A stretch of DNA of 35,248 bases from an uncultured Alphaproteobacteria bacterium (lineage in GTDB: Bacteria; Pseudomonadota; Alphaproteobacteria; HIMB59; GCA-002718135): positions 1 through 35,248 of the forward strand of contig CACJSL010000008.1 in assembly GCA_902596065.1 (NCBI GenBank), written 5' to 3'. Shown in pieces: positions 5,035 to 28,350 of the stretch (position 1 is its first letter; each line of letters opens with the position of its first letter). The translations under genes and the position numbers were made by a program. Below the pieces are notes generated by a model. That model saw only the letters and a program-made list of their open reading frames with translations, ran no database searches and was not told the DNA's origin.

Positions 5035-5613
5035 CTATAAAATATATTGATTCATATGATCTTTAATAAGATCTTTTGATTTATTTGAGAAATCTTTTAA
5101 GCACTTATAAATCATATCATCAATTATTCTTTCTACTTCTATTAAAGAAATATATTTCCCTGAAGTTGTAGTTCGATTTGCCTCAACAATAGCACTTGCT
5201 AACTTAAAATTAGAATCATCATAAATTACAAACTCCACTAAATAATTGACTTCATATAAAAAAATTGTTTTTTCTTCATATTTTTTTGAATCTATATTTG
5301 GTATTTCAGTTTTCTTTACTGAAGCATCTATAACATTTATTTCAAAATAATTTTTCGTACCAAAAGTTTGTATATTATTTTTAGTCCAGCTGTTTAAATA
5401 TAATATTGGTGAGTTTTCTAATGAATGATCTACAAACGGTTCTGAAAATTTAGGTTCATATAAAATTATAGTATTCTTTTTTTCTGCATTAATAGATATC
5501 TTAGTAAACTGATTATAATCAAAAACTATAGGATCTAAAATCTCTACTTTTTGACATGATGAAATAAATACTAAAATTATAAATATAAATATTTTATTTC
5601 TATTTTTTAACAT
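5035..5613 (-). CDS. Conserved lipoprotein of unknown function
   Basis: The 192-residue product starts with a clear lipoprotein signal: KNRNK, a hydrophobic Phe/Ile stretch, and the lipobox ISSC with Cys at about residue 20. The mature part is rich in Lys, Asn and Ser and has no domain I can name; LYEPKFSEPFVDHSLENSP and a stretch ending TTTSGKYISLIEVE look like conserved blocks. It is the last gene of the argDF operon: its ATG at 5611-5613 lies inside argF, 14 bases overlapping, so translation is probably coupled. The position is the only functional hint. It is probably anchored in the outer membrane facing the periplasm, or stays at the inner membrane. Confidence 0.75.
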   Translation of the reverse strand: MLKNRNKIFIFIILVFISSCQKVEILDPIVFDYNQFTKISINAEKKNTIILYEPKFSEPFVDHSLENSPILYLNSWTKNNIQTFGTKNYFEINVIDASVKKTEIPNIDSKKYEEKTIFLYEVNYLVEFVIYDDSNFKLASAIVEANRTTTSGKYISLIEVERIIDDMIYKCLKDFSNKSKDLIKDHMNQYIL

Positions 5614-8997: not shown

Positions 8998-10010
8998 TTA
9001 TTTTTTAAGTGAATTTTACCTTCTAGAAAAAGTGATATAGGTTTAGTAGTTTCAAATTTTTCAAAAGAAATCTTAATAATAGCAGTTAAAGGGGCTGCAA
9101 GTAAGACACCAATAATACCCCAAATCATGCCCCAGAAGATCAAAGATAAAATAACAGTTATTGGATGCAGACCAAATGTTTCACCAAAAATTTTAGGTTC
9201 TATTATATTGCCAATAATAATATGAACTATTGCCGGTAATAATATGATTAAAGCAAAAAAGGTAGGATCTTGAAATTGAAGAAAGGCAACAGGTATGGGT
9301 ATTAGAACTGCTATAACAGATCCAAAGACTGGAATAAAATTTAATATAAAGGTTAAAGTTCCAAAAATAAATGCTAGTTCAATACCCAAAAACCAGTAAA
9401 TTAAACCTGCTAAAACACCAGTTGCAGAAGAAGTTATAAACTTGGTAAAAATATATTTTTTTACATTAAAAATTATTTCATTCCATTCGTTTGAGGTATT
9501 AACATTTTTTTTACCTAACAATAAAAATAATGTCATAATTACAACAAGTACAAACTTTGAAATAAAATTGGCGCTATTGCTTAATATTGTTGAAGCCCAA
9601 TCTAAAAAAGGAAGTGTTGTAAGAGTATTACGAATAACTTCTCTATCAATTTCTATATCATATACAGAAAGTTGATTAATTATATAGTCAATCAATACTA
9701 ATACTTTTGCATTATAATCATCAGCTGACTCAAGAAAAGTTCCCACAGAACCAAATATGAAAGGAACAATAATTATAAATAAAATTACTATTAAAATTAA
9801 ACTAACGAATACAGCTATAATTCTATGAACTCTAAGATTTGTGGTTTGAAAATCAATTATTGGATCTATAAGAATTCTAATTAATAGAGCCATTACAAAA
9901 GGAATCATTATAGGCTTAGTAAAATTCAGAGTGAAGGCTACTGCAACTAAAGCCAGAATCAACAATGAAGCTGTAATAAATTTATTGTTTTCTAAATTAC
10001 TTTGATTCAT
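8994..10010 (-). CDS. AI-2E family (PerM-like) transporter
   Basis: A 338-residue membrane protein of the AI-2E/PerM family with about eight membrane segments. The N-terminus has KPIMIPFVMALLIRILIDP (about residues 32-50), and the C-terminal half holds the conserved FIPVFGSVIAVLIP, GNIIEPKIFGETFGLHP and FWGMIWGIIGVLLAAPLTA blocks. Members include TqsA and sodium/proton antiporters, so the substrate is open; an autoinducer-2 role should not be assumed. The start codon overlaps the stop of the upstream mechanosensitive channel gene (TAATG), so the two membrane proteins are translated together. Confidence 0.9.
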   Translation of the reverse strand: MNQSNLENNKFITASLLILALVAVAFTLNFTKPIMIPFVMALLIRILIDPIIDFQTTNLRVHRIIAVFVSLILIVILFIIIVPFIFGSVGTFLESADDYNAKVLVLIDYIINQLSVYDIEIDREVIRNTLTTLPFLDWASTILSNSANFISKFVLVVIMTLFLLLGKKNVNTSNEWNEIIFNVKKYIFTKFITSSATGVLAGLIYWFLGIELAFIFGTLTFILNFIPVFGSVIAVLIPIPVAFLQFQDPTFFALIILLPAIVHIIIGNIIEPKIFGETFGLHPITVILSLIFWGMIWGIIGVLLAAPLTAIIKISFEKFETTKPISLFLEGKIHLKNN

Positions 10011-11143
10011 TAAGTTTTATTTTTTGGATTAAATATTTCAGGTACCTCTTCAGGAAAAGATTCTAAATAAACAGACTGACTTGGAAAAGCAAAACCAGCT
10101 TTATTTTTTTCAACTATTTCAATAATATTTACTGCTAAAGACTCTTTAATTTTCAAAAATTCTCCCCAATCATTTGTTTCAGTAAAGGCCTGAACAAGCA
10201 TATCTATTGAGCTATCAGAAAAACTGTCAATTCTTACAAAAAAATTTGTATTTTCATTTTTTGCATATTTTGAGTCATCTTGAATTAAAGCACTTATCTG
10301 ATCTCTAATACTTTTAAGTTGTTGTGTAGTTGTTCGATATTCCAAACCGATAAGCCATCTAATTCTTCTATGATGTCGACGAGTATGATTTATTACAGAT
10401 TGTTCAGCAAATTTATAATTTGGTATCATTACTGGGGTAGTATCAAATCTCCTTATTAAAGTAGATCTAAAACCTATTTGTTCCACAACACCTTCCACTT
10501 CACCTGAAACTAAAATTACATCTCCTATAGTAAAACGTTTTTCCATTAAGATCATAATACCAGAAATTAAATTTTTAAATAAATCTTGGGCGCCTAAAGC
10601 AACAGCTACACCAAATAAGCCTAAACCAGCAATAACTGGACCAACTTTTATACCCCATAACTCTAAAATTGCTACTATACCTAAAACAAATATTAGAATT
10701 TTTAAACCTCTCAGTGTCCAGTCAACTAATGGTTTAGAAATTTTATCTTCAAATTTTTTTATTAAAAAAGAAAAAGGTACAACCAATTGATGTAACAACC
10801 AAAAAATAAAAATTGTAATAAGACTTCGATTAATCAAATCAATAAAATTTTGAACATTTTCAGAAAAATCAATGTAAGCAGAAGCTATAAAAAATCCAAT
10901 TACTACAGGTAAAAACTTTAAAGGACCTTCAATTACATCTATGATAGCATCATCAATTTGATTTTTTGATCTTAAGACAAGCTTACTTAATCTTCTTATT
11001 ATGAAACGAGCAAATAATCTTCTTAAAACATAAAAAAATAAAAAGATAATTAGTCCTATTATAATTTCTGATACATTTATTCCAAAAATACCTTGAAACC
11101 ATACTTCTTGAAAAAGATTGAAAAATTGATTGAAAGCTTCCAT
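10010..11143 (-). CDS. MscS family mechanosensitive ion channel
   Basis: A 377-residue small-conductance mechanosensitive channel. The N-terminal half has about four membrane segments. The pore helix TM3 and following beta domain are clear: GVAVALGAQDLFKNLISGIMI (about residues 178-198), then FTIGDVI, GVVEQIGFRSTLIR and the MIPNYKFAEQSVIN motif. The C-terminal alpha/beta vestibule follows. It would open under membrane tension to release solutes during osmotic downshock. It is the first gene of a two-gene unit with the AI-2E transporter and is divergent from the glutathione peroxidase gene. Confidence 0.93.
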   Translation of the reverse strand: MEAFNQFFNLFQEVWFQGIFGINVSEIIIGLIIFLFFYVLRRLFARFIIRRLSKLVLRSKNQIDDAIIDVIEGPLKFLPVVIGFFIASAYIDFSENVQNFIDLINRSLITIFIFWLLHQLVVPFSFLIKKFEDKISKPLVDWTLRGLKILIFVLGIVAILELWGIKVGPVIAGLGLFGVAVALGAQDLFKNLISGIMILMEKRFTIGDVILVSGEVEGVVEQIGFRSTLIRRFDTTPVMIPNYKFAEQSVINHTRRHHRRIRWLIGLEYRTTTQQLKSIRDQISALIQDDSKYAKNENTNFFVRIDSFSDSSIDMLVQAFTETNDWGEFLKIKESLAVNIIEIVEKNKAGFAFPSQSVYLESFPEEVPEIFNPKNKT

Positions 11144-11182
11144 TTATAAACTATGTAAATTAATATTAAAAAATGTCATATC

Positions 11183-11719
11183 ATGAAAAAGATAAAATTA
11201 TTCCTAATATTACTTATTTTTTTACTAACCAGCAATAAACTTATGGCTGAAAGTAAGTCAATTTATGATTTCAATTTTTTAGATATTGATGGAAATAAGG
11301 TAGAATTGTCTACTTTTAAAGGAAAGCCATTACTAATAGTTAATACAGCTTCGAGATGTGGTTTTACACCTCAGTATGAAGGGCTTCAAAATCTTTTTAC
11401 AAAATACAGAAAAACAGATCTTACAATAATAGCTACTACTTCGAACTCGTTTAATCAAGAATTTGAAAATCCAGATGATATTAAAAGAATTTGTTTAGTA
11501 AATTATAATGTCGGTTTTATTACTTCTAGCCCAATAGAAGTTAAAGGCATGAATGTTCATCCAATATATAAATGGATTAAAAAAGATTATAATCAATCAC
11601 CCAAGTGGAATTTTTATAAATACTTATTTAATCGTTCTGGGAAGCTTGAAGATTCTTGGAGTTCAATTATTAAACCTGATAGTAAAAAAATAATCAAAAA
11701 AATTGATAATTTAATATAA
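11183..11719 (+). CDS. Exported glutathione peroxidase family protein
   Basis: The 178-residue protein begins with a signal peptide (about residues 1-22, ending LMAES), so it acts in the periplasm. The peroxidatic Cys is C59 in NTASRCGFTPQY, the standard glutathione peroxidase motif. The usual FPCNQF block is replaced by TSNSFNQEF, and the conserved Trp/Asn are in SPKWNFYKYL. Such Cys-type enzymes often use thioredoxin rather than glutathione, so the electron donor is uncertain. It is a single gene, divergent from mscS, and closes with a strong bidirectional hairpin shared with groEL. Confidence 0.9.
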   Translation: MKKIKLFLILLIFLLTSNKLMAESKSIYDFNFLDIDGNKVELSTFKGKPLLIVNTASRCGFTPQYEGLQNLFTKYRKTDLTIIATTSNSFNQEFENPDDIKRICLVNYNVGFITSSPIEVKGMNVHPIYKWIKKDYNQSPKWNFYKYLFNRSGKLEDSWSSIIKPDSKKIIKKIDNLI

Positions 11720-11721
11720 AA

Positions 11722-11749
11722 AAAAGAGCCACTTTAAAGTGGCTCTTTT
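11722..11749. terminator. Bidirectional intrinsic terminator, gpx/groEL
   Basis: A perfect 14-base inverted repeat, AAAAGAGCCACTTT followed by its complement, has an A run on the left and a T run on the right, so it can end transcription on both strands. It lies between the convergent stops of the glutathione peroxidase gene and groEL. Confidence 0.85.
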
Positions 11750-11774
11750 CAAGTATTACAATTTAATTGATAAA

Positions 11775-13454
<1,680 letters not shown>

Positions 13455-13465
13455 TTAATTATTAT

Positions 13466-13771
13466 TTATTTCTTTTTTTTGCTTGATGTAATGATACCCA
13501 TAATGTCAGATTCTTTCATTATAAGGTACTCTTCTCCATTCATCTTTACTTCTGTTCCAGACCATTTGCCAAACAAAATTTTATCTCCTTTTTTAACATC
13601 TAACGGTTCGAGTTTTCCGTTTTCATTTCTAGAACCAGAACCAACTTCAAGAACCTCTCCTTCCATTGGTTTTTCCTGAGCTGTATCAGGTATTATTATA
13701 CCACCAGCTGTTTTTTCATCAGAGGCCACTCTCTTAACAAGCACTCTGTCATGTAATGGTTTAAAATTCAT
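13466..13771 (-). CDS. groES: Co-chaperonin GroES (10 kDa)
   Basis: The 101-residue lid of the GroEL chamber. It shows the family N-terminus [13 protein letters not shown], the mobile loop region [19 protein letters not shown] (about residues 17-35), and [10 protein letters not shown] and [15 protein letters not shown] blocks; the tail ends in Lys residues. GAGG lies upstream of the ATG. It is the first gene of groESL, with the CIRCE operator 43 bases upstream of the start codon. Confidence 0.97.
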
Positions 13772-13813
13772 ATTTTACCTCAATTTAAGTTATTGATAAT
13801 TAGTAATTATTTA

Positions 13814-13840
13814 TTAGCACTCTTTATAATAGAGTGCTAG
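13814..13840 (-). promoter_or_regulatory. CIRCE operator of groESL (HrcA site)
   Basis: TTAGCACTC, nine bases, then GAGTGCTAG form the CIRCE inverted repeat, matching the 9-9-9 consensus except the last base (G for A). It lies in the groES leader. The heat-shock repressor HrcA is expected to bind here; no hrcA gene is in the window. Confidence 0.95.
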
Positions 13841-13922
13841 TCATGTAATCATTCTTATAAAGTATTCAAGAGAAATTTAAAAAATATTTATAATTTATTG
13901 ATAAACAGATAAATAAGTAGCT

Positions 13923-14981
13923 ATGAATCATTTTTTTCAGGTATTTTCAAAAACATTAGGTTTTTTGCTAGCTATACTGTTTCTAATAGTTTTGATAAGC
14001 TTTTTTTTATTCTTTTTTGGTGAAAATAAACAAAAATATTTTACTTATTTAGATGGAAGTAAAGATTCTTCTGAAATTATTGCAATTTTAAATTTGAATG
14101 GACCCATAATTTCGGAACCTCCTAATTTTAATAATTACAATATATTTCAAAATTTAGAAGTAATATATCCATCACTAATAAGAGAATACTTAAAAGAATT
14201 AGAACAAAAAAAAGCAAAAGGCTTAATAATATCAATAAACTCTCCAGGAGGGGGTGTTTCTGCTACACAAAAAATATATAAATTAATAAAAGATTTCAAA
14301 GAAAAAAATAATATTCCAATTTTTTTTCATACTAAAGATATGCTTGCTTCAGGTAGTTATTGGGTTGCCTTGTCTGGAGATAAAATTTTTGCTGATTATG
14401 GAAGTATTATAGGAAGTATTGGGGTAAGAGGTCCAAATTGGCTATATTATAATTCCCCAACTTTATTATCTGAAGGTCTGTTTGGTAAATCTGTAGAGTC
14501 ACAAAATGGAATAAAATTATTTTCAAATACTGCAGGTATGCACAAAGATATTTTTAATCCTTTTAGAAAACCAACAAAAGAAGAATTAAATAAACTGCAA
14601 ATCATGGTTGATGATATTTATAATCATTTTGTTAATTTAGTTTCTATAAATAGAAAAATAGAAAAAAATATTATTACTAATGAGATAGGCGCCATGGTAT
14701 TTAACTCAAAAAGAGCAAAGCTTAATTATTTAATTGATGATGAAAAGAATATTGATGAAATAATTGAATTGATTTCAAAAAAATTAAAATTAGAAAATAA
14801 AAAAATTCTTATAAACAACTATGGAGATAAGTATAATTTATTTAATTTAAATTTTATTAATTTTTTTGATAATAAAATTAACAATAAAGATTTAAAAATA
14901 ATAATTAATAAAAAGCTTTGTAATAACTATTATAATGAATTCAGCAGTATATCACTAAATTATATATCTATTAATTGTTAA
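13923..14981 (+). CDS. SppA-like signal peptide peptidase (S49 family)
   Basis: A 352-residue membrane-anchored serine protease of family S49, which clears cleaved signal peptides. One membrane segment covers about residues 10-32. The family core shows IISINSPGGGVSATQKIY (about 102-119), the catalytic Ser S143 in MLASGSYWVA, IGSIGVRG, and a candidate catalytic Lys (K266, in SKRAKLNYLIDD). The Ser/Lys dyad follows the short SppA pattern, with one catalytic domain. The last ~60 residues, rich in Asn and Ile, have no obvious family match. It is divergent from groES and overlaps the convergent GT61 gene by 11 bases. Confidence 0.85.
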   Translation: MNHFFQVFSKTLGFLLAILFLIVLISFFLFFFGENKQKYFTYLDGSKDSSEIIAILNLNGPIISEPPNFNNYNIFQNLEVIYPSLIREYLKELEQKKAKGLIISINSPGGGVSATQKIYKLIKDFKEKNNIPIFFHTKDMLASGSYWVALSGDKIFADYGSIIGSIGVRGPNWLYYNSPTLLSEGLFGKSVESQNGIKLFSNTAGMHKDIFNPFRKPTKEELNKLQIMVDDIYNHFVNLVSINRKIEKNIITNEIGAMVFNSKRAKLNYLIDDEKNIDEIIELISKKLKLENKKILINNYGDKYNLFNLNFINFFDNKINNKDLKIIINKKLCNNYYNEFSSISLNYISINC

Positions 14982-17121: not shown

Positions 17122-17196
17122 TGGCTGGGGCGGTAGGATTCGAACCTACGAATGTCGGCTCCAAAAGCCGATGCCTTACCGCTTGGCGACGCCCCA
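17122..17196 (-). tRNA. tRNA-Gln (anticodon TTG)
   Basis: The minus strand folds as acceptor TGGGGCG/CGCCCCA, D stem GCC/GGC, anticodon stem TCGGC/GCCGA with loop TTTTGGA, and T arm CGTAG-GTTCGAA-CCTAC. The anticodon TTG reads CAA and CAG. The discriminator is G and CCA is encoded. Confidence 0.97.
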
Positions 17197-17315: not shown

Positions 17316-18221
17316 ATGAAAAATATTATAGCCCTAGATATTGGAGGTACTTCAATAAAGTCAGCAATTGTAAAATCAAATGGTAATTTTTTTAAAAACT
17401 CATGTAAATTATTAAAAATTGATTCTACTAGAGATAAAGACTACATAATCAATAAGTTTACCTACCCTATTAAAAATTCTCTTAATTTATTGAGCAAAAC
17501 AAATAAAAATTTTGAAGGAATAGCTATTTCAATTTGTCATCCATTTGATTTTAAAAAAGGAATATCATTAATTCAAAATCTAGATAAATACGAATCTATA
17601 TACGGTCTAAATATTAAAAAGATTATTCAAAAAAAATTTTCACTTAGTGCTAATAAGCCTATAATTTTTAATCATGATGCTAGATGTTACGGAATTGGCG
17701 AAGTTTTATTCAATGATTATAAAAAATATAAAAAAGTGATAGTGTTAACAATGGGCACAGGTATAGGAAGTAGTTTTTTAAATAATCAAAAAATAGTTCT
17801 TAAAGGAAAAGGAGTGCCTAACTTTGGTTGGATATCTGGACAAAAGTTTAAGAATGGTATTCTCAATGATTATACATCAAGTATTTTTATGCAAAAACAG
17901 TATTATAAAATAACTAAAGAAAATATAAGTATCAAAACGATGGCAGAGAGAGCTAGAAATAAAGATAAGATTGCATATAAAATTTTTTTTAATATGGGTA
18001 ATACTCTTGGTATTTATTTAAAAAAAAATTTTATTAATGATTTTAATACAGAATGTATAATTTTTGGTGGTCAAATTTCTTTATCTTCAGATCTTTTTTT
18101 CGATAGAATTAATTATCATCTTAAAAATTGTAAAAGTTTAAAAAAAATTACAAAAGCTAAAAATATTAAATTTGCAGGATTAAAAGGTGCAGCACACTTA
18201 TTAATAAAAAATTATGAATAA
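17316..18221 (+). CDS. ROK family sugar kinase
   Basis: The 301-residue protein has the ROK/hexokinase fold. The ATP-binding start is IALDIGGTSIKSAIV (about residues 4-18), the sugar and catalytic-base segment is FNHDARCYGIGE with the Asp of the NHDA motif, and the second phosphate loop is TMGTGIGSS. The zinc-binding CxCGxxGC segment of most bacterial ROK kinases is not present; GWISGQKF stands about where it would begin. The substrate is probably a hexose or amino sugar released by the cassette's glycosidase. It is the first gene of a four-gene operon and overlaps the next gene by eight bases. It could instead be a ROK protein with altered substrate range, but it has no DNA-binding domain. 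Confidence 0.85.
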   Translation: MKNIIALDIGGTSIKSAIVKSNGNFFKNSCKLLKIDSTRDKDYIINKFTYPIKNSLNLLSKTNKNFEGIAISICHPFDFKKGISLIQNLDKYESIYGLNIKKIIQKKFSLSANKPIIFNHDARCYGIGEVLFNDYKKYKKVIVLTMGTGIGSSFLNNQKIVLKGKGVPNFGWISGQKFKNGILNDYTSSIFMQKQYYKITKENISIKTMAERARNKDKIAYKIFFNMGNTLGIYLKKNFINDFNTECIIFGGQISLSSDLFFDRINYHLKNCKSLKKITKAKNIKFAGLKGAAHLLIKNYE

Positions 18222-19029
18222 ATTAAAAAGTGAATTATTCGAAAAAGGATATGTAAAAGTATCAAATTTAATTGATAAGGGTCTTCTTACTAAAATGAAC
18301 AATTTAACTACTAATCTTGTCAATCAACAATCAGAAGAAGATAAAAAAAAACAAGTTTCAACTGGCAGTATGATTAGTGTATCTCATGATGAAAGTTTTT
18401 TAAATTTAATAGTAAATGATGAATTACTCAAAATTTTTAGTAAGATGGGGTACAGTAATCCTAAATGGTCATCAGGTTATATCATTGGTAAAACGGCAAA
18501 TTCAGCACCTTTATATTGGCATACTGATTGGTGGGGATGGGATGATCCTATAAGTTTTGTTAAAAAACCTCCAATGATATTCGTAATGTTTTATTTAACA
18601 AATACAAATAAAACAAATGGTTGTCTAAGGGTAATTCCTGGATCTCATTTAAAATATAATGAAGTGCATAAATATATAAAGAAACACCATTCGCATTATA
18701 GATTGTATAATAATCCTGATGACCCCATATTCAAATCTGTAAAAGACGAATTAGATGTAACATCAAATTTAGGAGATGTTATTATTGGAGATGGTCGTGT
18801 CCTTCATGCAGCTCATCCTAATTTAAGTAATAAAATGCGGACTGTTGTTACCTTATGGTATTATCCTGACTTTAATGAATTACCTGATCATATTAAAGCC
18901 AGTTCAGAAGATCATCATAAATGGCCAAAAAATTGGAATAAAAAATCATTAGATATTCTCGAAAAATACTTTCCAAAATATGAAGGAAATGCAAAAAAAA
19001 TTGAATGGAATAGAATAAGATATGAATAA
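18214..19029 (+). CDS. Phytanoyl-CoA dioxygenase (PhyH) family Fe(II)/2OG enzyme
   Basis: The 271-residue protein is a cupin-fold dioxygenase. The iron-binding HxD pair is H103 and D105 in YWHTDWWGW. The distal His is H198 in GDGRVLHAAHPN, and R209, 11 residues later, is placed to bind 2-oxoglutarate. NGCLRVIPGSHLKYNEVH (about 135-152) is the typical PhyH block before it. PhyH enzymes hydroxylate many small molecules; here the gene is wedged between a sugar kinase and a sugar isomerase-like gene with eight-base overlaps on both sides, so the substrate is likely a sugar derivative, for example oxidative removal of a substituent. That is inference only. Confidence 0.88.
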   Translation: MNKLKSELFEKGYVKVSNLIDKGLLTKMNNLTTNLVNQQSEEDKKKQVSTGSMISVSHDESFLNLIVNDELLKIFSKMGYSNPKWSSGYIIGKTANSAPLYWHTDWWGWDDPISFVKKPPMIFVMFYLTNTNKTNGCLRVIPGSHLKYNEVHKYIKKHHSHYRLYNNPDDPIFKSVKDELDVTSNLGDVIIGDGRVLHAAHPNLSNKMRTVVTLWYYPDFNELPDHIKASSEDHHKWPKNWNKKSLDILEKYFPKYEGNAKKIEWNRIRYE

Positions 19030-19789
19030 AAAAGAAATTTCAATTCAGATTTATACAGCTAGAAATTTTAAACCTTATGAAAATATATTTAAATTTTTAT
19101 TTGAACAAGGTTTTAAAAATGTTGAATTATTTGAGGTTGAAACTTTTAATGAGACTAAAATTTTATTAGAGAAATATAATTTAACTGCACAATCTTCTCA
19201 TATAGGCTTCGATACTCTTAAAGATACGAAAAATATTATTTCATGTTTACAAAAATTAAATGTTAAACATGCTATTGTACCATGCCCAGTTGGTAAACCA
19301 GGAGGAAAGTTTGAAGAAATCTTTGATAAAAATGAAGAGGAATGGCATCATTTTGGTAAAGAATTAGCCTCCTATGTAAAAATTTTTGAGGATAATGGAA
19401 TTACCTTAGGTTATCACAATCACGCATTTGAATTTAATATGCTTCCTAGTGGTAAAATGCCTATAGAGTGTATTTTGGAGCATAATGAAAAATTAAAATA
19501 TGAAATTGATATAGGATGGGTAGTAGCTGGAAAGGCAGATCCGATATTTTGGATTAAAAAATTTGCTTCGAGAATCATTGCTTGTCATTTGAAAGATTTT
19601 TCTTCACCTGATAAAAATTTAATTAATCACGATTCACAATGTGCAATTGGTAATGGTTTTATAGATTGGGAATCTATTCTTTATGAAATAAAAAAAACCA
19701 ACTGTGAAATTTTAGCCTTAGAACATGATGATCCTAAAGATTATAAAGACTATGTTTCAAAATCTTTAAATTTTTTGAGTAACATATAA
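19022..19789 (+). CDS. Sugar phosphate isomerase/epimerase-like TIM barrel
   Basis: A 255-residue protein of the xylose-isomerase-like (AP endonuclease 2) TIM-barrel superfamily. Probable metal ligands lie in the expected strand ends: GYHNHAFEF (about 130-138), YEIDIGWVVAGKADP (about 160-174), IIACHLKDFSS (about 183-193) and the C-terminal ILALEHDDP. The pattern GYHNHxFEF is typical of members found next to Gfo/Idh/MocA dehydrogenases. It overlaps the dioxygenase gene by eight bases and ends one base before the dehydrogenase gene. It may isomerise or epimerise a keto-sugar, or take part in a beta-elimination of a keto-glycoside; sequence alone cannot choose. Confidence 0.85.
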   Translation: MNKKEISIQIYTARNFKPYENIFKFLFEQGFKNVELFEVETFNETKILLEKYNLTAQSSHIGFDTLKDTKNIISCLQKLNVKHAIVPCPVGKPGGKFEEIFDKNEEEWHHFGKELASYVKIFEDNGITLGYHNHAFEFNMLPSGKMPIECILEHNEKLKYEIDIGWVVAGKADPIFWIKKFASRIIACHLKDFSSPDKNLINHDSQCAIGNGFIDWESILYEIKKTNCEILALEHDDPKDYKDYVSKSLNFLSNI

Positions 19790-19790
19790 A

Positions 19791-20915
19791 ATGAAAGTTG
19801 GAATAATAGGTTGTGGAAATATTTCTGAAATATATTTTAAATGTCAAAATATTTATAATAATTTTGAAATAGTCGCATGTGCAGATATAAAACTTGAAGC
19901 TGCAAAAGAAAATGCAGAAAAATTTAATTTAAAGTTTCAAAGTGTTGAAAACCTTCTTTCAAATAATGAAATTGACTTAATAATTAATCTAACCATTCCA
20001 TCAGCTCATAAAGAAATAACAATTAATTCTTTAAAAGCTGGAAAACATTGTTTTAGTGAAAAGCCACTTGCGATGAACTTTGCTGAAGGAAATGAAATTC
20101 AAGAAATATCTAAACAAAAAAATCTTTATGTAGGTTGCGCTCCTGATACTTTTTTAGGTGCAGCAGGTCAAAAAGCAAGGGCTTTAATCGATGAAAATAA
20201 AATTGGAAATATAGTTCTTGGAACTTTTAATCTCATGAATCACGGAATGGAACATTGGCACCCCAACCCAGATTTTTTTTTCAAACCTGGTGCAGGGCCT
20301 GTATTTGATGTTGGAGTATATTTTATTACTCATTTAGTTAATTTAATTGGTCCTGTAAAAACTATAAGTGCTACAAGTGTAACAGCAAATGAAGAAAGAA
20401 CTATTACAAGTGAACTTAGAAATGGAGAAAAAATAAAAGTTGAAACTCCCACAACATTAATAGGTACTTTGGGTTTTACAAATAATGCAAAAATACAGTT
20501 TTTTTGTTCTTGGGATGTTTGGAAACATCAACACTCAACAATAGAGCTATATGGTTTAAATGGATCAATGATATTACCAGATCCAAATTTTTTTAGTGGT
20601 GATATTTTGGTTGCTAATAAAGATAAAGATTGGCAATTAATTAACAATGATAATATGTTGTTAGGGATACCAAACATGACTGATAATGATGGATCTAAGA
20701 TAGCTAATTATAGAGGTATAGGATTGTCAGATATGATTGATTCTATTAAAAATCAAAGGCAGGCGAGATGTTCGCTCGCTCTTTCAATGCATGTTTTAGA
20801 AGTAATGGAAGGAATCATTAAATCTGCAGAAAAAGAAGAGGTTTATAATTTAAAAACTAAACCTTCTCAACCCGAATTTTTTGATGAGAATGAAATTAGA
20901 AAATTAAAAAAATAA
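19791..20915 (+). CDS. Gfo/Idh/MocA family NAD(P)-dependent oxidoreductase
   Basis: The 374-residue protein starts with a Rossmann motif (VGIIGCGNISEIY, residues 2-14), has ADIKLEAAKENAEKF after the second strand, and the family EKP triad in HCFSEKPLAMNFAEG. The C-terminal alpha/beta domain holds GPVFDVGVYFITHLVNLIGP (about 168-187), the usual substrate and dimer region. These enzymes oxidise a sugar or polyol hydroxyl with NAD(P). It is last in the plus-strand operon and convergent with the GH38 gene, whose stop is 29 bases away. It may make a 3-keto sugar used by the TIM-barrel enzyme, which is inference. Confidence 0.9.
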   Translation: MKVGIIGCGNISEIYFKCQNIYNNFEIVACADIKLEAAKENAEKFNLKFQSVENLLSNNEIDLIINLTIPSAHKEITINSLKAGKHCFSEKPLAMNFAEGNEIQEISKQKNLYVGCAPDTFLGAAGQKARALIDENKIGNIVLGTFNLMNHGMEHWHPNPDFFFKPGAGPVFDVGVYFITHLVNLIGPVKTISATSVTANEERTITSELRNGEKIKVETPTTLIGTLGFTNNAKIQFFCSWDVWKHQHSTIELYGLNGSMILPDPNFFSGDILVANKDKDWQLINNDNMLLGIPNMTDNDGSKIANYRGIGLSDMIDSIKNQRQARCSLALSMHVLEVMEGIIKSAEKEEVYNLKTKPSQPEFFDENEIRKLKK

Positions 20916-20944
20916 ATTTATATAAAATTTTGTTAAAAAAATTT

Positions 20945-23596
20945 CTAAGAAATCACTATAACTTTTCTTTCATTAGGCTTAAAATCAATAAAATATTTTC
21001 CTGAAGAACTAGGATCTACTTTTTTTAACAATTTATTTGACATATTTTCAATATATAATTTTTTTATCTCAATATAGTTAGATTCAATTTCAAATGTTTT
21101 ATTCTCAGAAGAGTAGTTCATAAGATGTAAATATGATTTTTTATTATTTTTTTTCACATCAGTAATATAAATATTATTTGAAGAAATATTGAACATTTTT
21201 ATATTAGTTCTTTTTTTAGAATTTCCTCTATCTTGGTAGTTATGAACAACCGGTTCATATATATAAGGCATGATATCTTGTATACGTTGCAAAAGATCCT
21301 TTTCTTTTTCAAAATTAATTACAAATTCATATTTTATGAGCTTTGATTCATCTGCTAAAAAATTAGTATTCCAATAATTATTATATAACCAAGCAGAAAG
21401 CATTTTATATTTTCTCTCTACTTTATTATTTTTGTCAAATTTACCAAAATTTAATCCCCCTACTTGCCATAGCGGGCAATCTTTAGTTGAAATTGTAATA
21501 CCTCCATTATTTCCATGATAAGATATCCAATTTTGAGTTGTAAGATAGTGTTTACAAGAGAAAGGAAGATGATCTTTATCTAACTGAAGTATTGCCCCGG
21601 CAGTTTCGAAATGGCATTTTGTATTTGTTCCTGAATTTATTGGCATTGGTAAATAAAGAGCATGAGGATTACTATCTGGTTTTTTCAAAATTTCCAAATT
21701 TATAGTTAAAGATGGTTGGTTAGTAAAAAGTTTGTAATTAATTTTAAATTCATCACCGTTAGATAAATAAAACTCTTCTTCAACCAAAATGTAATTTGTC
21801 TTTTTAAAAAATTTTCTTTCTTTTAATTTTGCATTCTCTTTAATATTTTTCCATTTATTATTCCAAGAAGCGCTCCAGTCAAGTGAACCGGAAGCAACAG
21901 GTTTGAAAATTTCAGTTCTTTTTTGAGTTTTAGGATATTCCAAAACAGGAACACCAAAGAAAAATTCTTTATTATTTTTAATAAAACTATGTTTCTTTGA
22001 AAAAATATTTTCAATTCCTCCTTTTTCTGCAAATTGAACACTAATTTTTTTATTGTTAATTTCTAATTTTTTTATTTTTAAATCATTAGAAATACTTTTT
22101 TGAAAATCTATTTTTTTAGCAGTTAAAGGAGGTATTTCTATTGGACCCACCCAATCAACAAGATCATCATTTATTTCAGACATAGTCATATCTTGACGAT
22201 GAACTGAATTTACTTTTTTTTGTCTTGTTAAGTCAATTTCTCTTCTTACCCACCAATTGTCTTTTTCATTCATTTTATCAAAATCAAGTTTCATTTTTTT
22301 TCCTGCCTTATTCACTTCACTTAAATATGAATAGACACCTTTGAATTTAGGAATTTTGATAAATGCTTTTATTTTAAAAGGAAGGGAGTTAAAAGCTATA
22401 GCGCTTGCTTTTTCTCCTCCCATTAATTGTGCTATTTTTTCAACACCATCTCTTCTAAGCATTCTAGCTATTGATAATCCTTCGTAGGGTAAGACTTGTT
22501 TCATGATCCACTGCATTTTAGTTTCATCGGAAAAAGGGAAGTTGATTGATCTATCTGCTCCCCATGTATGTTCAGCATATAAAGCTAGGGATTCTTTTGA
22601 TTTTTTTTCTAGATCTGTTCGTCTAATGTCATCTTTTTTAGTATGCGTAAAAAGATTAACTATGTTAGCCTGACGTAAGGCTTTCTGCCCAGCTGAATTT
22701 ATACGAGTTTCATTAGGCGTACTTCCACAACCAAAATTCCACCAATCAGACCAATCTCCTTGCATAGTTGGGATTTTTTCTTGGGTTTTTAGTTTTTCAA
22801 AAAACTCTGAAATGGTCACCATGCGTATAGGAAAATCTTTATATTTATTATTCCAAGTTTTTAAAAAAGGAATAATATCTGGATTTGGAGGAGCATTATC
22901 ATGATGATTTGTATTTGTAATCTGGGCCATAAAAAAATCATATGAATAATTTGGCTTTTTTAAAAACTTGGGAAAATTTTCAATTGTTTTTTTTGTTCCA
23001 GATATTGAAAATGGTATTTTTAAAAAATGTCCTGCAGTAGCTCCGTATATAGGGCCATTATAAGCAAGTAGTTTTCTTTTTGTTGGACTTTGCCAATAAA
23101 AACCACTTGGCCAAGGCTTCAAAGCATGTCCATAAAATTCATTGATAGCCATGCTGAAACCCTTAATACCAAAATCGAGCAATGCATCTACCATCCCCCA
23201 AGGAACACCATTAATATCACAATCCATTGAATAATTAATTTTCATTCCTTCTTTGCGTAAAAAAGTGATCGGTTCTAAGTTTTCAATAATCATTTGATGG
23301 TCCATTAAAGGTGTCATATGCCATTTGCATCCTGCTACATCAATTAATCCTTTATGATGCAATTTTAAAAATCTTTTGCGATATTGGGGTGTTGTATTTT
23401 TCCACCAATCCATTGTTATTCCTGTAACCTCACATGTCCATTTAAATTGACAATTAGGTTCATTAGATGCATTTTTTTCTGCTAACTCTATTGCTTCTTC
23501 TATATATCTTTTATGTAATTCAAATATTACAGGCTGAGGAGAAGTATAACCGATATCAGTGTGAGAATGATGAAGAAGTAAAATTTCTTTAATCAT
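20945..23596 (-). CDS. GH38-type glycoside hydrolase (alpha-mannosidase-like)
   Basis: An 883-residue protein with a GH38-like catalytic domain in its first ~400 residues. The zinc-site motif is LLHHSHTDIGYT, with H12 and D14. The likely nucleophile is D127 in MDCDINGVPWGMVDALLDFG, and a third zinc ligand candidate is the His in LYAEHTWGADRS. The large C-terminal half matches the beta-sandwich region of the family in size but is weakly conserved; SGSLDWSASWNNKW and NYQDRGNSKKR are visible. There is no signal peptide, so it works in the cytoplasm on imported glycosides. The substrate may be an alpha-mannoside, but the active-site loop DINGVPWG differs from the classical DxFG, so another sugar is possible. 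It is the last gene of the ABC operon, three bases after the second permease. Confidence 0.85.
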   Translation of the reverse strand: MIKEILLLHHSHTDIGYTSPQPVIFELHKRYIEEAIELAEKNASNEPNCQFKWTCEVTGITMDWWKNTTPQYRKRFLKLHHKGLIDVAGCKWHMTPLMDHQMIIENLEPITFLRKEGMKINYSMDCDINGVPWGMVDALLDFGIKGFSMAINEFYGHALKPWPSGFYWQSPTKRKLLAYNGPIYGATAGHFLKIPFSISGTKKTIENFPKFLKKPNYSYDFFMAQITNTNHHDNAPPNPDIIPFLKTWNNKYKDFPIRMVTISEFFEKLKTQEKIPTMQGDWSDWWNFGCGSTPNETRINSAGQKALRQANIVNLFTHTKKDDIRRTDLEKKSKESLALYAEHTWGADRSINFPFSDETKMQWIMKQVLPYEGLSIARMLRRDGVEKIAQLMGGEKASAIAFNSLPFKIKAFIKIPKFKGVYSYLSEVNKAGKKMKLDFDKMNEKDNWWVRREIDLTRQKKVNSVHRQDMTMSEINDDLVDWVGPIEIPPLTAKKIDFQKSISNDLKIKKLEINNKKISVQFAEKGGIENIFSKKHSFIKNNKEFFFGVPVLEYPKTQKRTEIFKPVASGSLDWSASWNNKWKNIKENAKLKERKFFKKTNYILVEEEFYLSNGDEFKINYKLFTNQPSLTINLEILKKPDSNPHALYLPMPINSGTNTKCHFETAGAILQLDKDHLPFSCKHYLTTQNWISYHGNNGGITISTKDCPLWQVGGLNFGKFDKNNKVERKYKMLSAWLYNNYWNTNFLADESKLIKYEFVINFEKEKDLLQRIQDIMPYIYEPVVHNYQDRGNSKKRTNIKMFNISSNNIYITDVKKNNKKSYLHLMNYSSENKTFEIESNYIEIKKLYIENMSNKLLKKVDPSSSGKYFIDFKPNERKVIVIS

Positions 23597-23599
23597 AAA

Positions 23600-24451
23600 T
23601 TATCCCTTACCTGTTCCCATAGATCCAAGAGTAAGTCCACGAATAAAATGTCTTTGAAGTAATAAAAAGATAACTAATGTTGGTATGCTAGCCATAACTG
23701 TAGCCATTAAAATCGTAGGACCGTCCATTTGTGCATATAAGTTTTGCATTCCAACTAAAGCGCTTGTAACAGGCCTAACAGAAGTTGATCTTGATAAAAC
23801 CATTCCAAAAAGTAAATCATTCCATATCCAAGTAAACTGAATTAAAAAAACTAATAGCAAAGGTGCTTTAGCTAAGGGCATCATAATTTTATAAAGTATT
23901 TGCAAATTAGATGCTCCCTCTATTTTAGCTAATTCTTGTAATTCCCAAGGAACAGTTAGAAAAAAACCTCTTAAGACAAATGTTGCAAAAGGTATACATA
24001 TAGAAACATACATCAAAATAAGCCCAAATTTTGTATTATAAATTCCAATAGCTACATAAGCTTCAAATAAAGGTAATAGATACATTTGAAAGGGAAATAC
24101 AGTTCCGGAATATATAAGTAAAAACCATAGTAAACCGTTTTTCATTTTTAGTCTCACTATTCCAAATGCTGCTAAAAAAGCAAAAATTACAGCTAAAGAA
24201 GAGCCACAAAAACCATATATGAGACTATTTAAAACTCCGTCCCCTATTCCTTTATTCCAAGCTTTAATTGCATTATCAATAAAGGCAGTACCAAATATTA
24301 TTTCTGTTTTATCTCCTTTGGAATATTCAGAAGCAGTTTTGTTAGCATTAACAATAAGAAAAAAAACTGGATATATCCATGCCATAACAACAATTATCAT
24401 GCCTATATATCCAACAGTTAAATTAACTTTTTCTTTAGTTTTATAATTCAT
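23600..24451 (-). CDS. Carbohydrate ABC transporter permease (MalG-like)
   Basis: The 283-residue protein is a six-helix permease of the CUT1 sugar group. The cytoplasmic loop that docks the ATPase, the EAA motif, reads ELAKIEGASNLQILYKIMMP (about residues 174-193), and TWIWNDLLFGMVL follows, as in MalG-type subunits. The C-terminus ends RHFIRGLTLGSMGTGKG. It pairs with the MalF-like subunit encoded three bases upstream. No ATP-binding subunit is encoded in the window. Confidence 0.94.
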   Translation of the reverse strand: MNYKTKEKVNLTVGYIGMIIVVMAWIYPVFFLIVNANKTASEYSKGDKTEIIFGTAFIDNAIKAWNKGIGDGVLNSLIYGFCGSSLAVIFAFLAAFGIVRLKMKNGLLWFLLIYSGTVFPFQMYLLPLFEAYVAIGIYNTKFGLILMYVSICIPFATFVLRGFFLTVPWELQELAKIEGASNLQILYKIMMPLAKAPLLLVFLIQFTWIWNDLLFGMVLSRSTSVRPVTSALVGMQNLYAQMDGPTILMATVMASIPTLVIFLLLQRHFIRGLTLGSMGTGKG

Positions 24452-24454
24452 AAT

Positions 24455-25327
24455 TTAACTAACATCCTCTTTAGTTAAAACTGATTTTAAATAATAATAA
24501 GAAAATACAAGACCAACTAAACTAATTAATACTGCTACTGCAGCAGCATAACCAAGATCAAAAATTATAAAACCTTCTCTATACATTGTAACTGCTAAAG
24601 TTTCTGAATATCTTCCTGGTCCTCCCATTGTCATAACCCACACTGAATCAAAGATTCTAAAACTATTAATTAAGGCGAGTAATGATGCTATAACAAAGTA
24701 TGGCATGATCATTGGAATAACTATTTTAAATATTAAAGTGAAACCTTTGGCTCCATCAATTTTTGCTGCCTCCATTGGTTCTTTGGGTAAACCTTGTAAA
24801 CCAACTAAAAAAATCATCATATTGATGCCTGTTGCTTGCCAAGTATATGCACCAATCATTGAGTAGGTATTTTCAGGTGCTCTAAATAACCAATCTCTAT
24901 TTAAATGTTCGAATCCAATTAATGCTAACACCTGATTAAATAGCCCACTTTTATCAAGTATAAAACCAAATAATACTCCCGCAGCTGCAGCAGAAACTGT
25001 TGCAGGAATATAAATTAATATTTGAAAAAAATTTGACCTAGGTAAAAATTGTATGGAGTAGGCAAATAAAAATCCTATTGCAACCGGAAAAACTGTTGCG
25101 AGAACAGTCCAAATTATTGTATTTTTAATTGGTATTATATAATTTGGATCAAGAAATAGTTTTATGTAATTATCAAATCCAATAAAGTTTGCAGGGTTAA
25201 GACCATCATTATCAGTAAAGCTCATTATAAAAGTTCGAATAATTGGATAAATACAAATTAATGAAACTAAAATAACTGCAGGTGCTATATATAAATAAGC
25301 CTGATTAGTGTCTTTATTAAAATTCAT
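24455..25327 (-). CDS. Carbohydrate ABC transporter permease (MalF-like)
   Basis: The 290-residue inner-membrane permease has six predicted membrane segments. Family marks are the N-terminal AYLYIAPAVILVSLICIYPI (about 10-29) and SFTDNDGLNPANFIGFDNY (about 36-54), and the EAA loop MEAAKIDGAKGFTLIFKIVI (about 183-202), with VWVMTMGGPGRYSETLAVTM just after. It starts 60 bases after the solute-binding protein gene, with a hairpin in that gap that should lower its expression relative to the binding protein. Confidence 0.94.
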   Translation of the reverse strand: MNFNKDTNQAYLYIAPAVILVSLICIYPIIRTFIMSFTDNDGLNPANFIGFDNYIKLFLDPNYIIPIKNTIIWTVLATVFPVAIGFLFAYSIQFLPRSNFFQILIYIPATVSAAAAGVLFGFILDKSGLFNQVLALIGFEHLNRDWLFRAPENTYSMIGAYTWQATGINMMIFLVGLQGLPKEPMEAAKIDGAKGFTLIFKIVIPMIMPYFVIASLLALINSFRIFDSVWVMTMGGPGRYSETLAVTMYREGFIIFDLGYAAAVAVLISLVGLVFSYYYLKSVLTKEDVS

Positions 25328-25352
25328 CTAAAATACAGTTTTTGAAAAAAAT

Positions 25353-25375
25353 AAAGCCCCTATAAAAGGGGCTTT
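25353..25375 (-). terminator. Leaky terminator between SBP and permease genes
   Basis: On the minus strand AAAGCCCC, a seven-base loop and GGGGCTTT form a stable hairpin followed by ATTTTTTT, an intrinsic terminator shape. It stands inside the operon, after the solute-binding protein and before the permeases. Such partial terminators keep binding-protein mRNA in excess of permease mRNA. Confidence 0.8.
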
Positions 25376-25386
25376 AAATAAATTAA

Positions 25387-26619
25387 TTAGTTATTTGACC
25401 AATAGTTGTCAGCTAAAGTTTGTAAATTTTCCATTACATCTTTGTAGCTTGTTGGATCAAGTACAAATTTTGAAATTTCATCTACAGCAGCCTCACAAAT
25501 TTCTGTTGGAGTAGCTTCCCAATATCTATTGATTTGGCGATAACCTCCTTCATTAATTTCTTTAACTAAGTCTCCAACTTCACCTCCTGGTAAAGCAGCA
25601 TTTAAGTTATGAGGGGGAAAGAACATAAGTTCTGTCCATTTAGCTGAAGCAGCTTCAGACATCCAAAAATCAATTGCATCTAACGCTGCATCTTTGTCTT
25701 TTGCATTTTTTGCAACCATTATTGGACCAGCTTCAAAGATTACTGATGGAGGAAGAGATGCATTTTTATTTGGTAATACAAAGTATCCCCATTCATCACC
25801 TTCTTTAATTCCGCCTCCAGTAACAGTAGAAGCAAACCAAGTACCAACTAACATGTGAACTACTTCTCCTTTAGAGAAACTGTTGTTCATTGAATCACCT
25901 GTTGTGAATCCAAAAGCTGCACTTCCATCATCCATCCAACCTTTGTCCATCCAAGATTTCCAAGTTAAAAACGCTTCCTCAACTTGAGGGTCAGTATATT
26001 TAGCTCTTCCTTCTACTAAATCTTCATAAAAGTCAGGGTCAGAACGAATTAAAAACTCTTCAAACCAAATAAATGCAGGCCATCTGCCTTCTATTGTTTG
26101 TCCAACAGGAGTTCTGCCAGATGCTTTTATTTTTTCAAAATTTGATTCTAATTCTTCCCAAGTTTTTGGTTCACTAAGTCCAAGTTCTGCGTAAACAAGT
26201 TTATTGTAATACATTGGCCAAAAGGCAATTAAACTTGGAACAGCATAAGTTTTGCCATCAAATTGAAAAGCTTTTGCCAAGTCAGGAGAAACTTGTCCTG
26301 CAGCAATATATTTATCCCATATTGGACTTAAATCCTCAACTAAACCAGCGTCAACCATATCTTTCATTCTGTATCCAGCCCACCAAGTAAATAAACCTGG
26401 AGGATCAGCTCTTAAAGATTGTCTGACAGTAGCTTGGAAACTAGAAGTATCTGCAAACGGAGTAATCTCATAACTATTGTTAGAGTCCAAATCAAAAGTT
26501 TCTATCCACCAGTCTTGCCAACCTGCTTTGTCATGATAAAGTTGAACATCTCCTGCTAAAGAAAAATTAGCAGAAAATAAAAACGTCAATCCAATTAATA
26601 TTGAAGTTAATTTTCTCAT
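25387..26619 (-). CDS. ABC transporter sugar-binding protein
   Basis: The 410-residue family 1 solute-binding protein has a cleavable signal peptide (about residues 1-22, ending SLAGD). Blocks typical of sugar binders are GLFTWWAGYRMKDMVDAGLV (about 75-94), YAVPSLIAFWPMYYNKLVY (about 128-146), PKTWEELESNFEKIKASG, and FSKGEVVHMLVGTWFAST. Many Trp residues line the likely pocket, as expected for carbohydrate ligands. A near-perfect Shine-Dalgarno AGGAGGAA (26626-26633) precedes the ATG. The protein is less Lys/Asn-rich than its neighbours, as expected for an abundant periplasmic protein. It is first in the operon; 26620-26777 contains only A+T-rich promoter DNA with no operator I can identify. 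Confidence 0.94.
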   Translation of the reverse strand: MRKLTSILIGLTFLFSANFSLAGDVQLYHDKAGWQDWWIETFDLDSNNSYEITPFADTSSFQATVRQSLRADPPGLFTWWAGYRMKDMVDAGLVEDLSPIWDKYIAAGQVSPDLAKAFQFDGKTYAVPSLIAFWPMYYNKLVYAELGLSEPKTWEELESNFEKIKASGRTPVGQTIEGRWPAFIWFEEFLIRSDPDFYEDLVEGRAKYTDPQVEEAFLTWKSWMDKGWMDDGSAAFGFTTGDSMNNSFSKGEVVHMLVGTWFASTVTGGGIKEGDEWGYFVLPNKNASLPPSVIFEAGPIMVAKNAKDKDAALDAIDFWMSEAASAKWTELMFFPPHNLNAALPGGEVGDLVKEINEGGYRQINRYWEATPTEICEAAVDEISKFVLDPTSYKDVMENLQTLADNYWSNN

Positions 26620-26777: not shown

Positions 26778-27533
26778 ATGAGCGCCAAAAAGAATTATGT
26801 AAAACAAAAATTAATGAAAAATGAAATATGCGTTGGGATTTGGTCAATAATTTCATCAGAAAGTAATCTTGATATTTTCTCAAAATCAAAACTTGATTTT
26901 ATACTTTTAGATATGGAACATGGCAACTATATACACAACATAGAAAATTCAATTAGAATAGTTGAGTCAAATAATTGTTCACCTATTTTAAGGCCTCCAA
27001 CTTTCAACTCTCATTTTATTCAAAATGCTTTAGATTTTGGAATACATGGATTAATTGTTCCTCAAATTAAGTCTTTAGAAGAACTTAATCAATATATCAG
27101 CAATACTGTATTCCCTCCAAAAGGAATTAGAGGATTTAATCCTTTTGTTAGATCAGCTTCTTACGGTATGAAAAATAATTTAAATAATAATAATGATGAA
27201 TTCGCATTAAAGTCGATGATACTTGAACATAAGGATCTTTTAAATAAACTTGATGAAATTAGTAAAATAGAATTTTTAGATTTAGTTTATATTGGCGCTT
27301 ACGATTTATCCAAGTCATTAAATATTGACCCAACAGGAAATGAAATGAAAAAAATTATAAAAGAAACAACTGAAGTTCTTCGAAAGAATAATATTAATGT
27401 TGGAGCTATTGTATTTAATAAAGAAGATTTCAAAGAATTAACAAATTATGGTGTCAATTTTATAGTTTACTCCGTCGACTCTAAGATTATTGCTTCAGGA
27501 ATAGATTCATTTATTAGTGATATTGAAATATAA
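26778..27533 (+). CDS. HpcH/HpaI family aldolase
   Basis: The 251-residue protein belongs to the class II, metal-dependent pyruvate aldolases that split 2-keto-3-deoxy sugars into pyruvate and an aldehyde. Marks are VGIWSIISSESNLDIF (about 19-34), FILLDMEHGN (about 41-50), ILRPPTFN, FGIHGLIVPQIKSLEE (about 92-107), the PPKGIRGF loop and a metal-site region near MILEHKD. The usual GPxDLS segment is GAYDLSKSL here. It lies directly beyond the solute-binding protein gene on the other strand and shares its promoter region, so it may take a keto-deoxy acid formed by the cassette. It is convergent with ispE, seven bases away. Confidence 0.85.
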   Translation: MSAKKNYVKQKLMKNEICVGIWSIISSESNLDIFSKSKLDFILLDMEHGNYIHNIENSIRIVESNNCSPILRPPTFNSHFIQNALDFGIHGLIVPQIKSLEELNQYISNTVFPPKGIRGFNPFVRSASYGMKNNLNNNNDEFALKSMILEHKDLLNKLDEISKIEFLDLVYIGAYDLSKSLNIDPTGNEMKKIIKETTEVLRKNNINVGAIVFNKEDFKELTNYGVNFIVYSVDSKIIASGIDSFISDIEI

Positions 27534-27540
27534 ATATAAC

Positions 27541-28350
27541 TTATAAATAATTTATATTATTTTCACATACGTGGGTCCAAAGTTTACTATACTTATTTTT
27601 AAAAATTTCATTAGCCTTTAAAGCTTCTAATTTTTTTTCAAATGCTGCATAAAAACAAGAGCCTGTTCCTGTCATTCTTGTAAAAAGAGTGTTATCAAAA
27701 GTCTTTAAATAACTAAAAATTTCATTGAAGTATAAATTTTCTTCTATTACAATTTTTTCAAAGTCATTTCCTGTATCATTACTATTTTCATTAGTACTTT
27801 TTATATCTAATTTTTCATACATTTCTTTTGTTGAATGATTAAAATTAGGTTTAATTAATAAAAAATATAATTTAGGAAAAGTAGCTGGAGAAATTTTTTC
27901 TCCAATTCCAGTAATTATGCAATTTTTTGCAAATAAAAAACTAGGAATATCAGATCCTATAGAAACATAAGCACTCGGCTCTTTTAGATGAATATAATTC
28001 ATATCATGTAATCCTTTTATTAATCCTGCTGCATTGGTAGAAGCTGAGCCGAGCCCTCCTTGCACTGGAATGTTTTTAGTTACAGTAATATCAAAATGTA
28101 AATTTTTATCTAAGTCCAAAAACTTTAGCGTTTTTAGAATAATACAATCATTATATTTATTATTTTTAGGTTTAAAAAATCCTTTATATTTTATTTTTGT
28201 TTCATCACTTTTTTTAATGTCAATTTTATCAAATAAATCAATAAATGTTATTCCTGTTCTTAGTGAATGAAATCCATCTATTCTTTTGTTTAAAACTTTT
28301 AAAAATATATTCAATTTAGCAGGTGCTAAAATAGTTTTACTATCCAGCAT
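27541..28350 (-). CDS. ispE: 4-diphosphocytidyl-2-C-methyl-D-erythritol kinase
   Basis: The GHMP-family kinase that phosphorylates CDP-methylerythritol in the non-mevalonate isoprenoid pathway. The start reads LAPAKLNIFLKVLNKRIDGFH (about residues 8-28), which is typical of IspE. The phosphate loop NIPVQGGLGSASTNAAGL (about 90-107) carries a GLGSAS core where the enterobacterial form has GLGGGS, and the last motif is MTGTGSCFYAAFE. At 269 residues it is slightly short for the family. Its ATG overlaps the end of the TPR gene by 11 bases, so the two are coupled. Confidence 0.93.
   Translation of the reverse strand: MLDSKTILAPAKLNIFLKVLNKRIDGFHSLRTGITFIDLFDKIDIKKSDETKIKYKGFFKPKNNKYNDCIILKTLKFLDLDKNLHFDITVTKNIPVQGGLGSASTNAAGLIKGLHDMNYIHLKEPSAYVSIGSDIPSFLFAKNCIITGIGEKISPATFPKLYFLLIKPNFNHSTKEMYEKLDIKSTNENSNDTGNDFEKIVIEENLYFNEIFSYLKTFDNTLFTRMTGTGSCFYAAFEKKLEALKANEIFKNKYSKLWTHVCENNINYL

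Follow-up and report, generated by a model that had tools for sequence, protein, structure and literature searches.

A predicted alpha-mannoside cassette with a TIM barrel-Gfo pair and a PhyH dioxygenase on an exchangeable island of an uncultured alphaproteobacterium

The stretch of DNA analysed here (35,248 nucleotides, hereafter the window) is part of a 1.05-Mb assembly, 68% complete, of an uncultured alphaproteobacterium (GCA_902596065.1, contig CACJSL010000008.1). As judged by comparison with relatives, its region between a tRNA-Gln gene and an ispE-like gene is an exchangeable accessory island of about 10 kb at a site that varies among relatives, and the genes on it are likely to form a cassette for the catabolism of alpha-mannosides plus two add-ons. 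The cassette comprises the solute-binding protein (SBP) and two permeases of a sugar ABC importer, a GH38 enzyme and a ROK sugar kinase, and the add-ons are a TIM barrel protein paired with a Gfo/Idh/MocA dehydrogenase (Gfo), and a PhyH-type dioxygenase. The parts are known individually, but their combination is not described in the literature found. The statement of a preliminary description of this DNA that no described pathway has exactly this set therefore stands for the set as a whole, while both of its halves were already known.

In the proposed route a small oligosaccharide or glycoside that contains alpha-mannose would be bound by the SBP and taken up with power from an orphan UgpC-type ATPase encoded elsewhere, and the GH38 enzyme would free mannose in the cytoplasm. 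In sister genomes the mannose would enter glycolysis through ROK and a mannose-6-phosphate isomerase; in the window strain it is more likely that an AGE-family D-mannose isomerase would make fructose, followed by the ROK step. Less supported are the further steps, in which Gfo would oxidise the glycoside that remains, or another one that was imported, at C3, the barrel would split the oxidised glycoside by a Mn-dependent beta-elimination in place of hydrolases such as a beta-mannosidase, and PhyH would modify or remove a substituent on the imported glycoside. If this is true, the host cells import mannose glycans whole, with phytoplankton as a possible source, by means of machinery on an exchangeable island. 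Mannose is not mentioned in the reported sugar repertoire of the host's group of streamlined open-ocean Alphaproteobacteria (PMC10308909).

The GH38 gene (20945..23596, minus strand) is predicted to encode a hydrolytic, cytoplasmic alpha-mannosidase in which the fold and the active-site residues are kept. The N-terminal domain matched the Pfam model Glyco_hydro_38N (PF01074; 2e-13, 50.7 bits at a cut-off of 25). Fold comparison was used because sequence searches of the PDB gave nothing, and the 40 best Foldseek matches of the structure model are GH38 mannosidases (top match 2wyi, E=2.8e-27). D127 and H343 are invariant in seven homologues and H12-x-D14 in the six that cover that part; from their spacing relative to Drosophila Golgi mannosidase II, we take H12-x-D14, D127 and H343 to be the Zn ligands, the nucleophile and the distal His. 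On reading the sequences, GH38 has no signal peptide and the SBP has one, which supports the earlier proposal that a sugar is imported intact and cleaved inside the cell.

The importer genes on the minus strand encode the SBP (25387..26619; SBP_bac_1 1e-28), a MalF-type permease (24455..25327; BPD_transp_1) and a MalG-type permease (23600..24451; BPD_transp_1), with 47%, 52% and 51% identity, respectively, to their counterparts in a Deinococcus cassette. The best PDB match of the SBP is the chitin-oligosaccharide-binding NagB1 (9.8e-23), and NgtS entries are not among its 60 best PDB matches. A SmoF-like SBP was rejected, the match to SmoF being weak (5e-5) and behind many others. A sulfoquinovose route, with PhyH as a sulfonate dioxygenase, was likewise rejected, as the cluster has no GH31 sulfoquinovosidase; PhyH was not directly compared with a known sulfonate dioxygenase. 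The preliminary description had counted a sugar ABC importer within an eight-gene unit; the SBP and permeases are real, but the cluster holds no ABC ATPase gene and a ninth island gene, for an HpcH/HpaI-type aldolase, had been missed. Orphan UgpC-like ATPases are encoded elsewhere in the genome of the window strain, and the pneumococcal N-glycan importer is likewise listed without an ATPase of its own (PMC5215778).

This GH38 was found in three of the 100 relatives searched (the host's own genome counted), all of one genus, and it is nearly absent across 385 genomes of the class and 398 of the phylum. AG-414-E06 (L004) and AG-426-I04 (L006), both single-cell genomes, are the two sisters within the genus. 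A more distantly related genome, AG-910-K03 (L005), belongs to the same family, its GroEL being 93% identical to that of the window, as is that of another member of the family (G011). It carries the SBP-permease-permease-GH38 unit in another setting, together with a second GH38. Its divergent GH38 paralogues (4218-6902 and 10001-12637) flank one sugar ABC importer, and the locus adjoins genes for an AGE isomerase, a KDG kinase and a KDPG aldolase; a similar tandem pair of GH38 genes occurs in Devosia algicola (L007). Related GH38 genes of Devosia and of two further genomes (G773 and G163) likewise lie beside sugar ABC importer genes.

A tblastn search of plasmids gave GH38 homologues with shared neighbours on two Deinococcus plasmids (NZ_CP044989 and NZ_CP140100) and on CP053689, where the order is a class I mannose-6-phosphate isomerase-type gene, ROK, SBP, permease, permease and GH38. 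The Deinococcus cassettes share with the window the order SBP-permease-permease-GH38, an adjacent ROK gene and 43-52% importer identity (SBP 43-47%, permeases 45-52%), and differ in having the isomerase-type gene inside and neither PhyH nor a TIM barrel-Gfo pair; no published characterisation of them was found. This distribution indicates that SBP-permease-permease-GH38 with ROK is an old, recurrent alpha-mannoside cassette conserved across phyla. On two haloarchaeal plasmids (L014 and L015) GH38 relatives are split over a pair of neighbouring ORFs, with Gfo/Idh and sugar-phosphate-isomerase-like genes close by; the same families have here come together independently, in Archaea.

Among characterised systems, the NgtS-NgtP1-NgtP2 locus of Streptococcus pneumoniae resembles the window in its SBP and two permeases listed without an ATPase, its GH38 and its ROK, and it serves uptake and cytoplasmic trimming of alpha-mannose glycans (PMC5215778). 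The window locus lacks the GH125, GH92, GH20, GH29 and GH85 genes of the pneumococcal locus, which in turn has no counterpart of PhyH or of the TIM barrel-Gfo pair. The N-glycan loci of Cutibacterium acnes also combine a cytoplasmic GH38 with sugar ABC importer genes, the second locus having ROK too, but with GH5_18, GH20, GH125 or GH4 partners that are not in the window, and the oxidative genes of the window are not in C. acnes (PMC6160142). The Pfam search behind this comparison covered the ORFs of the window locus only and found no GH125, GH92, GH20 or GH5_18 among them.

Mannose is the best-supported candidate for the sugar released by GH38, because isomerase-type genes accompany the cassette. 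In L004 and L006 a gene for a 577-aa protein lies upstream of ROK; the protein matches ManA (33 bits, below the cut-off) and is 26% identical over 385 aa to the Deinococcus isomerase. The gene was not found in the assembly of the window strain, which is 68% complete. The catalytic-domain model of phosphomannose isomerase (PF20511) gave no canonical ManA in six genomes and is uninformative here, because these include the two that carry the 577-aa ManA-like gene. An AGE-family gene is present in all four genomes with the cassette (the window strain, G001, G002 and AG-910-K03) and not in G003 or G011; its best model is D-mannose isomerase, at 206 of 600 bits and so below the cut-off. AG-910-K03 thus holds the cassette, the second GH38 and the AGE D-mannose isomerase-like gene together. 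The ROK kinase of the window (17316..18221, plus strand; PF00480, 3.2e-24) is probably a mannokinase/fructokinase, and ROK genes also occur in the Deinococcus and CP053689 cassettes. It is strongly diverged from those of the sisters (dS of about 1.7, where the other genes have 0.06-0.56), and its G+C of 0.23 is below that of its operon neighbours. With the allele diverged and the isomerase gene gone, the ROK end of the window cassette was therefore probably replaced by recombination, with loss of the isomerase gene.

The first add-on consists of the TIM barrel gene (19022..19789, plus strand; AP_endonuc_2, 7e-16) and the Gfo gene (19791..20915, plus strand; GFO_IDH_MocA, 4e-21). The best structure match of the barrel is PDB 8bvk (phmmer E=1.3e-29), which is AtOGE, a Mn-dependent O-glycoside beta-eliminase of Agrobacterium tumefaciens, and H132, H134, D163, H189 and E234 of the window barrel align with His132, His134, Asp163, His189 and Glu233 of AtOGE, all identical (residue list in PMC10628242). 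No epimerase model of NCBIfam matched above its cut-off. The earlier label of a xylose-isomerase-like barrel is misleading in this respect, as among characterised structures a 3-keto-glycoside eliminase comes closest. Gfo, a probable glycoside or sugar dehydrogenase, has its best PDB matches among DgpA-type glycoside dehydrogenases and keeps the catalytic K91 invariant, while it scored 68 of 650 bits with the levoglucosan dehydrogenase model, far below the cut-off. The pair probably performs non-hydrolytic glycoside cleavage by oxidation and beta-elimination, with predicted cleavage of a 3-keto-glycoside to a 2-hydroxy-3-keto-glycal.

The operon of AtOGE also has a Gfo oxidoreductase beside a barrel with all the listed metal and catalytic residues, but there a flavin-dependent GlycDH oxidises C3, Gfo is the reductase and the hydratase AtHYD is present, so that the two genes of the window stand against a larger operon (PMC10628242). 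The LgdA-B1-B2-C genes of Bacillus smithii likewise place a dehydrogenase and a sugar-isomerase-like eliminase beside a sugar ABC importer; that levoglucosan pathway has four enzymes, whereas the window cassette has neither a hydratase nor a reductase gene (PMC7676230). Of the oxidation-elimination-hydration-reduction set, the window cluster holds the dehydrogenase and eliminase types only.

The preliminary description had treated the eight genes as one co-inherited pathway, which the relatives contradict. Sister L004 has GH38, PhyH and ROK and lacks both barrel and Gfo, and orthologues of the barrel (49-90% identity) occur in 26 of the searched family relatives irrespective of GH38. In two of these (G008 and G011) the barrel comes after SBP-permease-permease-UgpC and is itself followed by a Gfo with 73% identity to that of the window. 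Gfo proteins with 44-48% identity are encoded on plasmids of Sinorhizobium, Phyllobacterium, Roseinatronobacter and Paracoccus, where Gfo comes after a TIM barrel and a sugar importer. Because the L004 cassette is without the pair and many relatives have the pair but no GH38, we regard it as a separate module; on this gene content it is a portable module that joined the mannoside cassette, or it was lost from the cassette in L004. Its portability would suggest that non-hydrolytic glycoside cleavage is widespread in marine oligotrophs. On the Paracoccus plasmid pAK3 (L019, 3962-12344) SBP-permease-permease-UgpC is followed by two successive barrel-Gfo pairs (TIM1-Gfo1-TIM2-Gfo2), a four-gene candidate whose families resemble an oxidation-elimination-hydration-reduction pathway.

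The second add-on is the Fe(II)/2-oxoglutarate (2OG) dioxygenase gene PhyH (18214..19029, plus strand; PF05721, 4e-21). Its close orthologues are confined to genomes with the GH38 cassette (3/3 vs 0/57 genomes), with 81-86% identity in the two GH38-bearing sisters. Other relatives have distant PhyH members only, at no more than about 33% identity over part of the length, and in AG-910-K03 a relative of 36% identity adjoins its GH38. H103-x-D105 and H198 (iron) and R209 (2OG) are invariant in four sequences. The structure model, in which confidence is modest (pLDDT 59), has as its fold matches generic 2OG oxygenases of mixed substrates that give no clue to the substrate; a sequence search of the PDB gave no match. 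The N-glycans of Chlorella vulgaris end in 3-O-methyl and 3,6-di-O-methyl mannoses (PMC6344472), and because O-methylated mannose caps some algal N-glycans, demethylation by PhyH is a reasonable guess, although a single literature search gave no Fe/2OG sugar O-demethylase. We see a slim chance of a route both hydrolytic and non-hydrolytic, in which PhyH strips O-methyl or comparable caps from the oligomannose of algae, GH38 then trims the alpha-mannoses so exposed, and the beta-glycoside left over is cleaved not by a beta-mannosidase but by Gfo and the barrel, through oxidation at C3 and beta-elimination. The association of PhyH with GH38 offers a concrete lead toward an enzyme that clears modified mannose.

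The island is bordered on the left by tRNA-Gln (ttg; 17122..17196, minus strand; ARAGORN and Rfam), with the cargo on the 5' side of the tRNA, and on the right by the ispE-like GHMP kinase gene (27541..28350, minus strand; Pfam). The same tRNA-Gln borders the site in L004, L006, L031, L034 and L030, and the ispE-like gene is conserved beside it in seven relatives. In G006 the two lie about 130 bases apart, an empty site; in G005 the interval holds about 11.7 kb of other genes, and in G008-G010 different cargo adjoins ispE. In L034 (G011, 9143-14764) it is filled by an Lhr-type helicase and an ATP-dependent DNA ligase with nuclease-like neighbours, so that one hotspot hosts a sugar cassette in the window strain and a DNA-repair-like cluster in this relative. 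The comparison bears out the earlier suggestion of a transferable accessory unit at a tRNA. The segment missing from the empty site also includes the gene for the HpcH/HpaI-type 2-keto-3-deoxy-acid aldolase (26778..27533, plus strand; Pfam/NCBIfam), which is divergent from the SBP gene and retained in L004 and L006, and the island therefore has nine genes; a link of the aldolase to the sugar pathway is putative. A classical integrative element was rejected, since no integrase was found among the island ORFs scanned with Pfam and NCBIfam and the cargo lies at the 5' and not the 3' side of the tRNA. For the same two reasons exchange by homologous recombination through the conserved flanks is more likely than site-specific integration.

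As first described, the eight ORFs are intact and form two tight convergent operons, and Pfam upholds the family calls. Neighbours in the plus-strand operon (ROK-PhyH-barrel-Gfo) overlap by 8 bases or are separated by a 1-base gap, the gaps in the minus-strand operon (SBP-permease-permease-GH38) are 59, 3 and 3 bases, and 29 bases separate the two stop codons. Against same-genus orthologues omega was about 0 to 0.31 for all tested genes, with the strongest constraint on the permeases and SBP (0.00-0.04 within the genus), and by this measure all eight genes are under purifying selection. Because orthologues are kept in the same-genus genomes under such constraint, the set is not a product of chance. 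A loose collection, in which the hotspot gathered unrelated sugar genes and the two operons have no common substrate, would agree with the absence of the barrel-Gfo pair from L004 and its independent placement elsewhere, with the exchanged ROK allele and with the unrelated cargo in relatives. We nevertheless consider it unlikely, as ROK and PhyH accompany GH38 in all same-genus cassettes, AG-910-K03 also has PhyH, the plus-strand genes overlap one another, and the genes are under purifying selection.

Several observations weigh against the mannoside cassette and the route proposed for it. The GH38 enzyme is remote from solved members, with no PDB match at threshold in sequence or profile searches, and confidence in its structure model is modest (pLDDT 61, pTM 0.49). 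Because the window ROK is a different allele and its cassette has no isomerase gene, the case for the mannose route depends on the sisters and on an AGE gene located far away. The hydratase and reductase of complete oxidation-elimination pathways are absent from the cassette, and L004 manages without the barrel-Gfo pair. Finally, the GH38 locus of Devosia combines a Gfo 42% identical to that of the window with lactonase and enolase-type genes, a setting that would suit a sugar 1-dehydrogenase instead.

This last point would favour a nonphosphorylative oxidation, in which mannose freed by GH38 is oxidised at C1 by Gfo, the HpcH/HpaI aldolase splits a 2-keto-3-deoxy acid and the barrel is an isomerase or epimerase. 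The island aldolase does match 2-keto-3-deoxy-acid aldolases, MR/MLE enolase-type genes are found in the GH38 loci of Devosia, G773 and G163 together with lactonase/SMP-30 and mutarotase-like genes (which in G773 and G163 were identified by eye), and AG-910-K03 has an SMP-30-like protein besides its KDG kinase and KDPG aldolase. We hold this route to be distinctly unlikely in the window, where the cassette has no lactonase or dehydratase, the barrel keeps the AtOGE residues with no epimerase model above cut-off, and ROK and the sisters' mannose-6-phosphate isomerase fit phosphorylation. Degradation of inositol, freed from a mannosyl-inositol compound, by an IolE/IolG-like barrel and Gfo is highly improbable, for the NCBIfam matches (iolE 38 bits, iolG 58 bits) are far under the curated cut-offs (290 and 355 bits), the nearest structures are AtOGE and DgpA, and the island has no further iol genes.

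Elsewhere in the window the Rfam scan matched only tRNAs, and the 554-aa protein encoded by a neighbouring gene is GroEL. Outside the window, L006 has two similar-looking TPR-containing proteins that are not in the window, one on each side of the cassette (5776-6792 and 18198-19547), and near one of them an FlmC-like 2OG oxygenase.

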